Made by a program: the position numbers and the translations under genes
Origin: Pleurocapsa sp. FMAR1
GTDB taxonomy: Bacteria; Cyanobacteriota; Cyanobacteriia; Cyanobacteriales; Xenococcaceae
DNA: 64,000 bases
Assembly: GCF_963665995.1 (NCBI RefSeq)
Contig: NZ_OY762512.1
Location: forward strand, 1,426,001 to 1,490,000
Reading direction: 5' to 3'
Notes under the pieces: generated by a model
What the model was told of the DNA's origin: nothing
Database searches by the model: none
Seen by the model: only the letters and a program-made list of their open reading frames with translations
Part shown: positions 29,432 through 56,411 of the stretch, piece by piece
Layout of the letters: each line of letters begins with the position of its first letter
Position numbering within the stretch: the stretch's first letter is position 1

Positions 29432-29731
29432 CTACTTTTTTACTTTAATTTCTCACCATACTTTAGCGGAAAAATTGCAGTTTTCAGCAGGTTTCTGATT
29501 GCCAGTGTGTAGTTTAAACAAAACAAATTTAAATTACTTTAATCGTTGATGCCTGGTTGACTGACAAAAGATGAAGAGAAAAACCTGAGAATAGAGATTC
29601 AGTAAAGAGTTGAGGGATTGACACAAAGCAAGGGGAGTCAGCACTCTGAGATTAGATACCACTCATAATTTCAGAATACTGTGAATCAAAACTCCCGTCT
29701 CTACAATGCCTTGAATCAATGGATGAGTCAA

Positions 29732-30360
29732 TAGAAGTTTGAAGACAGAAGTATGAAGGCGCGAAGTTTCAAGTTTGTTCGAGGGCTTGTACCTCATACG
29801 AAGGAAGAAGTTTGAAGTTTGAAGGAAGAAGGAATTCGGAATTCGGGAAGGATTTTTTGTAGCTCATACCTCACACCTCATACTTCGCGCTGTTTTACTT
29901 CATACCTCATACACAGGGCTATCGCCCAGATCGTCCGTCCTTCGGACGACTTCGATGCTTCGCATCGTGTAGGGCGAAGCCCTGGTACCTCTACCAAACT
30001 AAGAGCGATCGTGAACGACGGGGCTTGCAACTATAGTGGAACAAAGGACTTGTCCGCATGTAGGAGGAAGTAGCTGTTTACGAAGTTTGAAGGAAGAAGT
30101 TTGAAGGAAGAAGGAAGAAAGATTTTTTGTACCTCATACGAAGGAAGAAGTAGCTGTTTTACTTCATACTTCATACCTCATACTTCATACTTCATGCAGC
30201 TGTTTTACTTCATACACGGACTCTCTGTCCGTCGCCGTTCCCGAGGAGACGTCGGAACGCAGAGAGCGTTCACCTCACACTTCGCGCCACAGGGCTATCG
30301 CCCAGATCGTCCGTCCTTCGGACGACTTCGATGCTTCGCATCGTGTAGGGCGAAGCCCTG
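29732..30360 (+). repeat. Hairpin-rich 629-bp element, copy A (inserted in transposase)
   Basis: It begins right after GTCAA (29727-29731) and ends right before GTCAAGCTACT (30361). From left to right it contains purine-rich repeats (GAAGTTTGAAG, GAAGGAAGAA), pyrimidine-rich repeats (ACTTCATAC, CCTCATAC) that are their rough complements, a 71-bp three-way-junction module (29914-29984), about 100 bp of unique sequence, more purine/pyrimidine repeats, a CTCTCTG...CAGAGAG hairpin module (30221-30266) and a second 71-bp module (30290-30360). It has no terminal inverted repeats and no believable gene. Copy B at 31163 is nearly identical, differing mainly in short-repeat number. Confidence 0.85.
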
Positions 30361-30388
30361 GTCAAGCTACTGACTGGTTACATTTATG

Positions 30389-30537
30389 TTTTACTTCATA
30401 CACGGACTCTCTGTCCGTCGCCGTTCCCGAGGAGACGTCGGAACGCAGAGAGCGTTCACCTCGCCACAGGGCTATCGCCCAGATCGTCCGTCCTTCGGAC
30501 GACTTCGATGCTTCGCATCGTGTAGGGCGAAGCCCTG
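30389..30537 (+). repeat. Partial third copy of the hairpin-rich element
   Basis: This repeats the right end of copy A: the CTCTCTG...CAGAGAG hairpin (30407-30452) and the 71-bp module (30467-30537), again followed by GTCAAGCTACT (30538-30548). A 17-bp unrelated stretch (30372-30388) separates it from copy A. It lacks the pyrimidine-rich segment CACACTTCG between the two modules. Confidence 0.8.
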
Positions 30538-30590
30538 GTCAAGCTACTCTTCAATCTTCAAATATTTGGATGATAATTGCTTTAATACAC

Positions 30591-30727
30591 ACGGGCAATG
30601 TCAACCTGACAAAATGGTCGATGTACATCCCTGGTCGAGGGAAGTGGCTGTCATCTTCAAACTTGGGGTATTGACGGGCAATGTCAACCTGACAAAATGG
30701 TCGATGTACATCCCTGGTCGAGGGAAG
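30591..30727 (+). repeat. Imperfect tandem duplication in the transposase gene
   Basis: A 54-bp block beginning ACGGGCAATGTCAAC occurs at 30591-30644 and 30674-30727. The 83-bp offset is not a multiple of three, so it shifts the transposase frame (the GNVNLTKWSMYIPGRGK segment is encoded twice). Confidence 0.9.
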
Positions 30728-31162
30728 TTGGCTGGGGGTAGACAGAGACGTATTCAGCGTTGGCTAAACAATCCTCGAATCAATGTCCATCGAATCAGAA
30801 AGTCCTTGGTCAAAGCAGCACTTGATGATTGGTCAGAATCAAAAATATTTTTGGCATTAGACACTTCACTGTTCTGGGATGAGTATTGCCTTGTGCGGCT
30901 TTGGGTTATTCATCGAGGGAGAGCTTTACCGTTGGTGTGGAGAGTGATGAACCATGAAAGTGCTAGTATTTCAGTTACCGATTATCGAGAGATGATTAAG
31001 CAGGCACAAGTTAGGCTACGAGAATCAGTTAAGGTAATTTTACTCGCGGAGCGAGGATTTATACATACCGAATTGATGACCATGCTGACAACTCAACTAG
31101 GATGGCATTATCGTCTCCGAATTAAGAGTAATACCTGGATTTGGCGTGGAAGTTGGTGTCAA

Positions 31163-31791
31163 CAGAAGTTTGAAGACAGAAGTATGAAGGCGCGAAGTTT
31201 CAAGTTTGTTCGAGGGCTTGTACCTCATACGAAGTTTGAAGTTTGAAGTTTGAAGGAAGAAGGAAGAAGGAATTCGGAATTCGGGAAGGATTTTTTGTAG
31301 CTCATACCTCACACCTCATACTTCGCGCCTTCATACCTCATACACAGGGCTATCGCCCAGATCGTCCGTCCTTCGGACGACTTCGATGCTTCGCATCGTG
31401 TAGGGCGAAGCCCTGGTACCTCTACCAAACTAAGAGCGATCGTGAACGACGGGGCTTGCAACTATAGTGGAACAAAGGACTTGTCCGCATGTAGGAGGAA
31501 GTAGCTGTTTACGAAGTTTGAAGGAAGAAGTTTGAAGGAAGAAGGAAGAAAGATTTTTTGTACCTCATACGAAGGAAGAAGTAGCTGTTTTACTTCATAC
31601 TTCATACCTCATACTTCATACTTCATGCAGCTGTTTTACTTCATACACGGACTCTCTGTCCGTCGCCGTTCCCGAGGAGACGTCGGAACGCAGAGAGCGT
31701 TCACCTCACACTTCGCGCCACAGGGCTATCGCCCAGATCGTCCGTCCTTCGGACGACTTCGATGCTTCGCATCGTGTAGGGCGAAGCCCTG
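31163..31791 (+). repeat. Hairpin-rich 629-bp element, copy B (inserted in transposase)
   Basis: It begins right after GTCAA (31158-31162) and ends right before GTCAA (31792-31796). Module order is the same as in copy A: 71-bp modules at 31345-31415 and 31721-31791, and the CTCTCTG...CAGAGAG hairpin at 31652-31697. Differences from copy A are in the count of GAAGTTT/GAAGGAA units and a small TGTTTTACT gap. The near-identity means recent copying or gene conversion. Confidence 0.85.
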
Positions 31792-32375
31792 GTCAACCTA
31801 AAAACTTTCACTTTCATTTAGCAGAGGCAATTTGCTTACACAACGTACAGATTCACAAAGGTGAATTTTCTGGCAAAGTTCATGTGATTCTTGGTCGCAA
31901 CAACGTTAACGGCGAACTATGGGCAATTGTCAGTAATGAAAAAACTACTCTACAAACCTTTGCTGAATATGGATTACGTTTTGATATCGAAGCGAATTTT
32001 TTAGATGACCAATCTGGTGGTTGGAATGTTCAACGCTCGATGATTCGAGATGTATGCGCTTTGTCCCGTTTGTGGTTTATCTTATCTGTGGCTACTCTCT
32101 ACGTTAGTGCCCAAGGTGTTGAGGTAGTTCGTATTGGCAAACGAAGATGGGTTGATACTCATTGGTTTCGTGGTAATAGCTATTTTAGGATTGGTTGGGA
32201 TTGGGTCAAAGCTGCACTCATTAATGGTTGGAATTTACTTCATTGCGTGACTTTCTCTAGTAATCAAGATCCCTCACCTGCAATGGCATCACGATCGCAA
32301 TATCAAAAACGAGCAGATCAGTTGGAGTTCAAAGTTTTAACTTATTCCTACAATATTTCTTGAAAGTTTTGTCAG

Positions 32376-32860
32376 TCAATCAGCGTTGATGCAGTGAACT
32401 ATTTGTTTATCATCAGGCATAGTTTCGTATTGAGGAAAGCTATCAGTAATCTTCCACCATTTAGCTTTTGATCCTGTAAAAATATGAAACTCTTGATATT
32501 GGTCAAATTCTCCTTCACAGCCAGCAATGGGTAAACCCAGTAAATTGTCTCGCAAGGGATAAATCGTTGCCAAGCTTGAGCCACAGTTTTTGCAGAAGGT
32601 TTTTATTACGTTGGCAGTAGCTTGATATTGAGCCAAATATTCTTGTCCTTGGATTATTTTATAGCCATCTGCCTTGATTACCATACGGCTTCTAAATGCT
32701 GCACCATGCCATTTACGGCATTTTGACGAGCGACCCCGCGTCGGCGAAAGACGCAAGGGAACGCGCGAGATAGACAATGACAATGAACTAAGTTTCCCAT
32801 TGCGCCACAATACTCATAGCGAATTTTGCCACACAAACATTCTCCCTTCAAATTCGCCAT
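32376..32860 (-). pseudogene. GFA-family (formaldehyde-activating-enzyme-like) gene, interrupted
   Basis: Two pieces of a GFA/CENP-V domain protein. The N-terminal piece (32771-32860) reads GECLCGKIRYEY and ends VHCHCL. The C-terminal piece (32376-32723) resumes with KCRKWHGAAFRSR, has the zinc pair KTFCKNCGSSL, and continues to QIVHCINAD. Joining them gives CHCLKCRKWHG, the expected zinc motif. A 47-bp GC-rich insert (32724-32770) separates and frameshifts them. The IS4-type element supplies the last two codons and the stop; the ancestral end was probably HCIND. Family members bind zinc and act on S-hydroxymethyl-glutathione or related thiols, with substrate often unknown. Confidence 0.85.
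32724..32770 (-). repeat. GC-rich repeat module inserted in the GFA-like gene
   Basis: The 47 bp contain TTCCCTTGCGTCTTTCG and GACGCGGGGTC (leftward strand), the same module as near 24313 (rightward) and 16684 (leftward). It lies between the zinc-ligand codons of the gene and causes a +2 frameshift. No clean target duplication is visible; traces of TAGAC lie on both sides. Confidence 0.75.
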
Positions 32861-54313: not shown

Positions 54314-55552
54314 TTACGCTGACGCTAAAAACGTGGGATTCTCCCGTCTAGTCTCAAAATTGGTAGTATCGAACAGACACAATTGTTCTGCTCTCCCATT
54401 TATGATGTTCATGGAGTTCAGGGGATTGCCAATTACCCCGTCCAATAGATTGTCTGTATCCATTGCAGATACAGCTTTTAGATAATCTACTGGACAACTA
54501 CGGTAGTCCCAAATAGCGAGATTACGAGCAGCATTAAAGTCAGAGTTTAATTTTGCGCCAGAGGTGCATTTAAACCAATGCCCATTGCGTTTGCCAATAA
54601 CGCTGTTAACAGATGAAGTTTTAGAAGAATAATGAGGAGGTCTGACATGGACAAGTCTGCCAAGTTTAGCCATTTTATATTCTAGCTTTTGCCCGAGATC
54701 GTAGTACGCCCAAGCATGACGAGACTTGGCATTATCAGAACGAGATTTCTTTCTCTGTTTCATTGTCTGACGGCAGCCAGACAAATCTTCTAGTATCAAG
54801 TCGGCATTCTGCCAGTCAGCAAAATCAACAATACGACGAGACACAGTATTATTTACTGCCCTCATCCAACGTTGTTCTTTTTGCTCTAGCTTCTTAACAG
54901 CACGATATTTACCAGCCTTCTGTAGCTGTTTTCTGCGCTGCTGAAACTTGCGACGAATATGCTTGACCTGTGATCCTGAAAAGAATAATCCAAATCCTTT
55001 TTTTGGTGCAGCAACAGCAATTTGATTTTGCCCTCTATCTACCCCGACTCGATTGTCTGCTATCAGCTTTGGAACTTCCTCAGTGACTGAGATTAGTGCA
55101 TACCATTTACCTTTGTACTGGCACAACTTGAGTGTACCTTTAGTCAAAGATTTGTCATTAGCTAAAAGCCTGTCTAATATTGGTTGCCAATGACGAGATT
55201 TAATTGCTATTGGTACTCTTTTGATGCCAAACAAGGTAGGAAAAGAAACGGAGTAGACATCACCTACTTTAAATAGCCTCCAGTTTTGACAATTTGCTTC
55301 TGGAGGCAATAGTTTAAATTTCTTAGCTTTCTTACCAGCTTTGCCTTTACAGTGACGAATAACCTGATTGGCTAATGCTGATTTTAGAGGTGTTACTACT
55401 TTTGAAGTAGTCAATTTTTTTCTCTCTTTAATTGGCACAGCCAAAAGTTCGTTCCCAAAAACAGTACAAGCTGTTGTCGTCTCAGCAAACATAGTGGCTT
55501 TGACGGCATTAAGATTATGAAATTTAAGTTTTAAAGTAGTAGTGACCTGCAT
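54314..55552 (-). CDS. tnpB: TnpB-type RNA-guided nuclease with degenerate zinc ribbon
   Basis: A 412-residue TnpB. The RuvC-like residues are present: Asp172 (VGVDRGQ), Glu255 (LILEDLSG) and Asp338 (NSDFNAARN). The zinc ribbon normally reads TCSKCG...C-CG. Here it reads TSSVNS (312-317) and KCTSGA (328-333), so three of four cysteines are gone. TnpB nicks or cuts DNA guided by a small RNA from the element end and helps keep the element in place. Loss of the ribbon may reduce activity, or this subfamily may do without it. Confidence 0.9.
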   Translation of the reverse strand: MQVTTTLKLKFHNLNAVKATMFAETTTACTVFGNELLAVPIKERKKLTTSKVVTPLKSALANQVIRHCKGKAGKKAKKFKLLPPEANCQNWRLFKVGDVYSVSFPTLFGIKRVPIAIKSRHWQPILDRLLANDKSLTKGTLKLCQYKGKWYALISVTEEVPKLIADNRVGVDRGQNQIAVAAPKKGFGLFFSGSQVKHIRRKFQQRRKQLQKAGKYRAVKKLEQKEQRWMRAVNNTVSRRIVDFADWQNADLILEDLSGCRQTMKQRKKSRSDNAKSRHAWAYYDLGQKLEYKMAKLGRLVHVRPPHYSSKTSSVNSVIGKRNGHWFKCTSGAKLNSDFNAARNLAIWDYRSCPVDYLKAVSAMDTDNLLDGVIGNPLNSMNIINGRAEQLCLFDTTNFETRRENPTFLASA

Positions 55553-55578
55553 GAAAAAACTATACTACAATATTGTCT

Positions 55579-55974
55579 ATGAATCAATCTTATAGACGAA
55601 CAAATACCACTGTATCTTTAATCAATTACCATTTTATTTGGATACCCCGTCGCAGACGAAAAGTCCTCAAGAGTGCGGTTCATACTAGAGTCACAGAGTT
55701 AATCTACGAAAAAGCTAGCGAATTAGATTGCAAAATAGTCAGTTTGGCTGTTGAACCTGAGCATATTCACTTGTTTCTGAACTGCTCTCCAGGTTTAGCA
55801 CCAAAGCAAATTATGCACCGTATCAAAGGTTATTCATCCTATGTGTTGAGAAAAGAATTTCCACACCTCAAGAAGATGCCTAGTATGTGGACTCGTAGCT
55901 ATTTTGTCTCTACTGCTGGAAATGTTTCTAGTAGTACAATTGAGAAATATATTGCTGCTCAAGGCAAAGTTTAA
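55579..55974 (+). CDS. tnpA: IS200/IS605 transposase TnpA (Y1, HUH)
   Basis: I start it at ATG 55579; TTG two codons earlier also fits. About 131 residues with the HUH motif (EPEHIHLFLN) and the catalytic Tyr in SSTIEKYIAAQ. It works as a dimer that excises and inserts single-stranded DNA. All catalytic residues are present, so the transposase could be active. It is divergent from tnpB. Confidence 0.92.
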   Translation: MNQSYRRTNTTVSLINYHFIWIPRRRRKVLKSAVHTRVTELIYEKASELDCKIVSLAVEPEHIHLFLNCSPGLAPKQIMHRIKGYSSYVLRKEFPHLKKMPSMWTRSYFVSTAGNVSSSTIEKYIAAQGKV

Positions 55975-56411
55975 CGGGCGATAAATCACTCGTGTCGAAA
56001 TTCATCCCATTGCCTAAAGGCAATGGGATGAATTTCTCCCGTCCTTTATGTAAAGTCAATACAATATTAATTGCTAGTAGAGTACTAAAACCTGTTTGCA
56101 AAAATACTCCTAAAGGTGGCACAAATATTGCACAAATAATTCTAATAATGTCTATTTTATTACTATGCGCCCTAATTTTTTAACTTGATATTCTTATATT
56201 AAAAATAAATCAAGCAAAAATCTGGCTTAGGTTATAAACATCAGCCAGAAAAAATTTATTTATATATAGCAAAAGATAGAGAAAGCATTGATAAATGGAT
56301 AATGTAATGTCTTCTTAATATGCGATCGCTCTGTGGTAATTTTTGAGCGTAGATCTTACAAAGACAATTTATTAAGTTCTTTAATCAATCTACTGAATTT
56401 TAAGAACTATT
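55975..56411. other. Left-end hairpin of the IS605 element and AT-rich gap
   Basis: The perfect hairpin AAATTCATCCCATTGCCT / complement (55998-56015 and 56018-56035) lies 24 bp after tnpA and is probably the end recognised by TnpA. The rest, to 56411, is AT-rich with no believable gene; a 63-residue ORF at 55992 overlaps the hairpin and is rejected. Confidence 0.6.

Follow-up and report, generated by a model that had tools for sequence, protein, structure and literature searches.

The stretch analysed here (the window) comprises 64,000 nucleotides within a single 5.43-Mb contig of Pleurocapsa sp. FMAR1, and it contains an IS4-type insertion sequence (IS) whose transposase gene is interrupted twice by the same 629-bp hairpin-rich element. 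The insert is a transposase-free, non-autonomous member of a dispersed cyanobacterial palindromic family. This family appears to be new, of a broadly known kind, and has an unusual core; literature searches, with subscription journals largely outside their coverage, found no description of such a family. For its movement we tentatively favour, at a little below an even chance, a non-autonomous palindromic element that carries its left GTCAA border along, targets GTCAN and moves as a folded single strand, served in trans by a Y1/HUH enzyme. With its compensatory core, a target of four to five bases and natural empty sites, the family is a concrete and testable case of structured non-autonomous mobile DNA in cyanobacteria, and the core model can be used as a search tool for the missing enzyme.

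An IS4-type insertion sequence with two gene-less inserts

Insert A (29732–30360) and insert B (31163–31791) lie on the plus strand, and their bodies measure 629 bp each, as read directly and by BLAST. GTCAA borders insert A at 29727–29731 and 30361–30365 and insert B at 31158–31162 and 31792–31796, all read directly on the plus strand; the two bordered copies described in the first-pass annotation are therefore in place. The inserts are 97.3% identical over the BLAST alignment, and their differences are mostly repeat-length changes. Both contain stops in all six frames (translation of the canonical IS copy at 104155), and neither end of the element (TAGAAG.../...CCCTG) is an inverted repeat of the other, in line with the earlier statements that the element has neither a gene nor terminal inverted repeats. 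Given the same stops, a 669-amino-acid "open frame" listed for several IS copies is not supported. At the right end of each insert, a pattern search located a mini-hairpin, GGGCGAAGCCC in insert A, followed by TGGTCA (30348–30364 in A and 31779–31795 in B, plus strand). Further inside, cmsearch with model R1 detected remnants of a two-hairpin core at 29968–30032 in A, where hairpin 1 is disrupted, and at 31399–31463 in B (plus strand; 21.7 bits and E=0.0013 each). With 40 of the 89 first-look candidates scored, the genome holds 26 near-complete matches to the element, a repetition far beyond chance, and every one of them lies within a copy of the host IS.

The host IS occupies positions 29553–32383 on the plus strand (2831 bp including the inserts). 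Its ends, CTGGTTGACTGACAAAA and TTTTGTCAGTCAATCAG, were the query that located all 15 copies, each with both ends found, in the genome. It is flanked by a 9-bp target-site duplication (TSD), CGTTGATGC, at 29544–29552 and 32384–32392 (read directly and computed); TSDs of the IS4 family are about 9–13 bp long. The 3' part of the transposase gene, which ends in the stop codon TGA, lies at 31797–32363 on the plus strand. When both inserts are removed from the canonical copy at 104155, an IS of 1321 bp remains, with a single uninterrupted transposase frame of 376 codons from the ATG. The transposase matches the NCBIfam model transpos_IS4_2 (E=6.4e-31, 107.7 bits) below the curated cut-off of 152, which bears out the earlier IS4-type assignment. 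With an IS4-type DDE transposase and TSDs of 9–10 bp where these were detected, the host is a member of the IS4 family.

Eleven of the 15 IS copies hold both inserts, and four hold one insert and lack the middle third (exon 2), the outcome expected of recombination between A and B. All 15 third exons start at the right end of an insert, all 11 second exons sit between two inserts, and a sixteenth third-exon match is a 187-bp fragment. All first-look candidates were scored in these exon searches, which would have revealed a near-identical uninterrupted IS copy; none was found in the genome. A more divergent intact relative could remain in this genome, where 13 of 41 candidates were scored. TSDs of 9 bp were found in six copies and of 10 bp in one, and none was detected in the other eight. 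For the pair of IS copies near 104 and 5427 kb, an assembly overlap was considered and rejected, with no match at two more distant places tested. About 7 kb adjoining them does match, and they belong to a segmental duplication of ~10 kb (>99% identical; G000:C1, about 96.9–106.8 kb and 5419.6–5429.5 kb), which includes one IS copy and whose second unit reaches the contig end. Independent insertions of the IS thus number 14 at most.

To place the inserts in time, the IS of related genomes is informative. Uninterrupted IS with open frames are present in the relatives G006 (87% amino acid identity) and G004 (80%), and the DNA alignment with G006 continues unbroken across both insertion sites. There, the empty site A reads GTCAA and the empty site B reads GTCAG. 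The empty IS contains GTCAA six times on the plus strand and twice on the minus strand, and two of the six are occupied. Since the IS of the relatives is uninterrupted, the inserts arrived later, and the IS spread carrying them; the first-pass annotation had named an element ancestral to the IS as a result that would speak against it, and the relatives show the reverse order. Moreover, the B junction is common to all 15 copies, and both inserts therefore most simply predate the spread of the IS.

The interruption of all 15 copies in one genome raises the question of where the transposase came from. Among copies of normal exon length, compared with the exception of exon 2 of the window copy, one has three missense differences and another has one synonymous change and one stop; two IS copies carry a stop just upstream of the ATG. 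These few exon differences give no sign of constraint. Among the four copies without exon 2, two are flanked by a 9-bp TSD of their own, and two have in common an insert allele that is absent from all other copies. The common allele, the separate TSDs and the lack of exon constraint suggest that the broken copies may have been moved in trans by an intact transposase, which would now be lost, too divergent to see or outside the assembly.

Alternatively, the insert could leave the mRNA, or ribosomes could skip it, in the manner of an intron-like or bypass element, and the interrupted IS would then spread itself. This would account for 15 interrupted copies of 15 with no near-identical intact copy found, and for the frame regained on removal in the canonical copy. 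However, any insertion between short direct repeats would restore the frame, the exons change without constraint, and exon 2 is missing entirely from four copies, including the two with the 9-bp TSDs just described. Furthermore, the Rfam covariance models of group I/II introns and known ribozymes have no match in the inserts, in six core loci or in the window, and a member in a SelD-fusion gene (described below) lies in frame and is open, a property that splicing would not require. Such self-spreading is very unlikely. The idea that splicing keeps the IS active was accordingly demoted to this rival, the exon changes being unconstrained.

Inserts A and B appear to have exchanged sequence after their arrival. 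In the copy at 104155 they differ at the first base only, and at a single-nucleotide polymorphism that varies among the IS copies, A and B have the same base in 10 of the 11 double-insert copies, as read from the table. Based on this near-identity and agreement, gene conversion between the two inserts is likely.

The window copy of the IS is itself rearranged. The first-pass annotation held that excision of the element with one GTCAA restores the transposase frame exactly; this is the case at the B junction, but across A the frame is not restored because extra tail sequence of the element, an 83-bp duplication and the loss of 4 bp intervene. The partial third copy of the tail, a rearrangement of the window IS copy, lies at about 30387–30537 on the plus strand, and GTCAAGCTACT is repeated directly after it. 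The direct duplication within the transposase (30591–30728, plus strand) consists of two 55-bp units 83 bp apart (30591–30645 and 30674–30728); this 83-bp direct duplication and a 4-bp deletion lie between A and B. The A-to-B interval measures 797 bp in the window copy versus 555 bp in the remaining 10 of the 11 double-insert copies. Overall, positions 30361–31157 show several template-switch-like scars, including a duplication with a displaced native piece. In the 2938-bp IS copy at G000:C1:3719977, a further partial element (positions 181–629) follows insert A.

A dispersed family with a two-hairpin core

Outside the IS, at unrelated loci, the same genome contains smaller members with bodies of 199 bp (L030) and 253 bp (L029), both with the ends seen in the inserts and with GTCAA on both sides. 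L030 contains a 63-nt two-hairpin core. In the IS inserts, hairpin 1 of this core is split by extra sequence, which makes the insert an enlarged derivative of the family, whose members range from roughly 100 to 630 bp. A covariance model from five sequences placed the core in at least 17 of 60 genomes, and a rebuilt model placed it in at least 24 of 386 genomes of the phylum; both counts include the genome studied here and are lower bounds, because scoring covered a subset of the first-look candidates. The search with a strict core pattern returned nine stretches in named records from Xenococcus sp. PCC 7305 and from metagenome-assembled genomes (MAGs) of Pleurocapsa, Calothrix, Symploca and Crocosphaera. 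Additionally, two plasmid records have a 38-nt match to the small element, and no viral contig among those searched contained the exact right end.

The core shows compensatory change in two alignments. In the alignment of 48 sequences, which was fitted to the model and is hence biased to structure, 16 of the 18 pairs change on both sides, and 90.0% of cells are paired, compared with 74.9% after shuffling and at most 61.1% after sliding. In a MAFFT-only alignment of 23 sequences, chosen with covariance models, RNAalifold recovers both hairpins, with compensatory changes in 13 of 14 pairs. The arms that flank the core are variable in sequence and pair with each other: complementarity within an element is 13.4, compared with 8.45 ± 0.76 when partners are permuted (23 elements; 0 of 5000 permutations). 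Many members also carry the terminal mini-hairpin GGGCGAAGCCC. Among the wobble cells of the core, G-U plus U-G amounts to 24 and A-C plus C-A to 38 when the outermost pair of hairpin 2 is omitted; that pair is U-G in 41 of 48 sequences, and its inclusion reverses the balance.

No family in Rfam fits the element. For the inserts, Rfam searches returned only two microRNA (miRNA)-model matches (E=0.99). For six core loci, they returned two tRNAs and sub-threshold matches, among them one miRNA model over a core at E=0.0068. Across the window, one tRNA reached gathering scores and nothing else did. The sub-threshold miRNA-model matches over hairpins are taken as chance.

Some relatives of the core have other flanks. 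At L204, L210, L226 and L228, which belong to other cyanobacterial families, AACGAAG...-like left and CGATTGTTTCGATAA-like right flanks replace GTCAA; the alternative flank occurs on the left side only at L205 and on the right side only at L209. Such relatives may form a sister subfamily that follows different target rules. At L253 (G000:C1:2216717, minus strand), the right-end motif GGGCGAAGCCCTGGTCA has no clear left partner, and the nearest upstream GTCAA is 217 bp off.

Borders, target and the movement of the element

Within 250 bp of the core, GTCAA occurs on the left at 35 of 48 loci, on the right at 29 and on both sides at 23. The best of the 59 other anagrams of GTCAA is both-sided at 6 of the 48, and some AT-rich 5-mers reach similar both-sided counts through composition. 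Of 25 loci with enough flank, 15 have GTCAA on both sides near the core and none has it at 600–850 bp. Together with the borders of L029 and L030, these counts support a site preference for a GTCAA core, one of two readings in the first-pass annotation. The right end was examined in 54 border rows, made up of the core loci plus four named loci (the right windows of L168 and L170 were misplaced, and both are motif-free). The right-end motif is present in 30 rows, where the right border is GTCAA in 19, GTCAT in five, GTCAG in two and another sequence in four. In all seven rows with GTCAT or GTCAG on the right, the left border is GTCAA. This constancy on the left suggests that the fifth base, and with it the left GTCAA, travels with the element.

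According to the model that we favour, the left GTCAA would move with the element and the target would be GTCAN. Movement would involve a folded single strand of the element, which an enzyme like the Y1/HUH transposases of IS200/IS605, acting in trans, would cut and rejoin. In terms of the minus strand, insertion would take place 3' of (N)TGAC, and TTGAC would be carried at the right end of the element itself. The apparently travelling border, the short fixed target, the terminal mini-hairpins and the non-inverted ends are the grounds for this IS200/IS605-like or PATE-like reading (palindrome-associated transposable elements, PATEs, are compared below). We state the likeness to IS200/IS605 transposition with moderate confidence and as a likeness only, with no claim of membership.

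The second reading of the first-pass annotation, a 5-bp target duplication, corresponds to an ordinary miniature inverted-repeat transposable element (MITE). Here a DDE transposase acting in trans would make a 5-bp staggered cut at GTCAA, and the repair would leave 5-bp duplications. Such a cut would account for the GTCAA seen on either side of A, B, L029 and L030, and the mutually pairing arms of an element would also be in keeping with a MITE. In contrast, the extreme ends are not inverted repeats, a left GTCAA accompanies the GTCAT or GTCAG right border at seven of seven such loci, and the target specificity of staggered cuts is usually far lower than that seen here. Terminal inverted repeats common with an autonomous element, which define MITEs, were not found, and none of the loci read holds an autonomous relative. 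A duplication is possible, but given the seven loci it is not the best reading, and a MITE origin is rather improbable.

Several observations weigh against the single-strand model. At 25 of the 48 core loci, GTCAA is missing within 250 bp on at least one side, and the first-pass annotation, which had named copies with other flanks as evidence against its reading, is contradicted to that extent. In L237, the left border is GTCAG and GTAAT stands where the right border is expected, and the right end of L160, one of the seven loci that bear on the fifth base, is doubtful. In the part of the matches that was listed, the ends of core relatives from other families frequently differ. The left end has no constant hairpin across members, unlike the ends of IS200/IS605, which carry hairpins. 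The wobble pairs do not discriminate DNA from RNA. Single-strand transposition does not predict the features of L176, where 26 bp are directly repeated at the border and the arms are direct repeats; this locus looks rearranged as a whole. For the host, eight of 15 IS copies have no detectable TSD. Finally, none of the seven Y1-transposase loci in the genome has the core, and none lies near the 31 matches to the right-end motif.

The resident Y1 transposases were examined as partners at all seven loci, and none fits; the earlier remark that the mobilising enzyme is unknown thus stands for these loci, with genes for TnpB-only elements and reverse transcriptases outside the search. One of the loci lies in the window. 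An IS605-type element at 54314–55974 has tnpB on the minus strand, divergent from tnpA on the plus strand (Y1 locus 55573–55974). Its presumed left end abuts TTGAC (minus strand; GTCAA at 56055–56059), the border pentamer of the family, and its end hairpins look different. As a partner, this element is a lead only.

Two further explanations invoke an RNA or single-strand copy. In retroposition similar to that of short interspersed nuclear elements (SINEs), a minus-strand transcript ending in UUGAC would prime on the target GTCA and be copied by a reverse transcriptase acting in trans. The RNA-like, covarying core, the constancy of the left (priming) border beside a variable right border, and the 26-bp direct repeat at the border of one locus (L176) would suit this route. 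However, the transcribed strand is not clear from the wobble pairs, a series of truncated copies is not shown, and L176 appears rearranged as a whole; SINE-like retroposition is quite unlikely. More broadly, the elements could form a gene-less, folded lineage across cyanobacterial families that spreads through a structured single-strand copy (RNA or single-stranded DNA), with the core recognised by an enzyme unlinked to known transposons. We regard this as improbable. If true, it would be a bacterial counterpart of SINEs that rides in insertion sequences and even in open protein genes.

Movement may also need no dedicated machinery, with template switching during replication and recombination among hairpin-rich repeats producing the copies. 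The template-switch-like scars of the window copy, the rearrangement of L176 and the likely conversion behind the single-base difference between A and B at 104155 all speak for such processes. Random switching would not be expected to give the same short border at independent loci of several genomes, or the exact boundaries at A, B, L029 and L030. Collectively, an origin from these processes is quite improbable.

Known systems and members inside genes

The closest comparison is with the PATEs of Haloquadratum walsbyi, which have palindromes matched to resident IS605-type transposons (PMC3119063). PATEs resemble the present family in having no transposase gene or terminal inverted repeats, in a short oligonucleotide at the insertion point, in frequent nesting with other mobile elements and, as regards the right end of many members here, in palindromes near the termini (PMC3119063). 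Unlike them, the family described here combines a conserved two-hairpin core that covaries with variable arms complementary to each other, and none of the seven resident Y1 loci matches the element. Taken feature by feature, the members of ~100–630 bp are gene-less, and the inserts have stops in six frames. The right mini-hairpin supplies a near-terminal palindrome in many members, and the left end is not constant. As to a fixed 4–6 nt target without duplication, one copy of which travels, the borders are GTCA(A) and the left GTCAA may travel, a pattern from which L237 deviates. Palindromes akin to a resident IS605-type element were not found among the seven Y1 loci, with TnpB-only elements outside this search.

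REP sequences and REPINs with RAYT transposases, including GTAG-tagged families of cyanobacteria, are likewise non-autonomous, hairpin-forming and dispersed and have a short terminal tag (PMC3116915, PMC3733652). In contrast to the GTAG tag, the present family has GTCAA as a direct repeat at its two outer ends, and the units of about 100–630 bp have a two-hairpin core. A GTAG tag with a linked RAYT was not seen: the tag is GTCAA, and none of the 31 right-end matches is near a Y1 gene. The palindromic elements of Rickettsia can also lie in frame within protein genes (review: PMC10969869). The present family offers only one clean in-frame case (195 bp, L230), and the IS inserts carry stops. The small dispersed repeats (SDRs) of Nostoc are also small mobile cyanobacterial repeats. 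Elhai's SDRs of 2008 are reportedly about 20–30 nt long.

The in-frame case is L230 (JAAHGR010000394.1, a Symploca sp. SIO2E6 MAG), where a 195-bp member lies in frame and free of stops in a gene for a SelD-fusion oxidoreductase. The gene is open over 897 codons with the element and over 832 codons on its removal. Homologues were obtained in 36 of the 40 relatives searched, many of them weak, and in the best ones the alignment is continuous across the site. The genes that contain L159 and L176 match IS4-type transposases weakly (E=1.4e-6 and 0.001, respectively; below the cut-off), and, like the IS inserts, these two members contain stops.

A fourth member inside a gene, L172 (G000:C1:3741543), was at first a candidate for a clean insertion in a small gene. 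This was rejected and the locus was excluded from the empty sites, as homologues in G016 place its two halves in different genes, which marks it as a fusion. The member is open at the fusion and sits where the first part of one gene is joined in frame to the last part of a different gene, as if a deletion had occurred between two elements.

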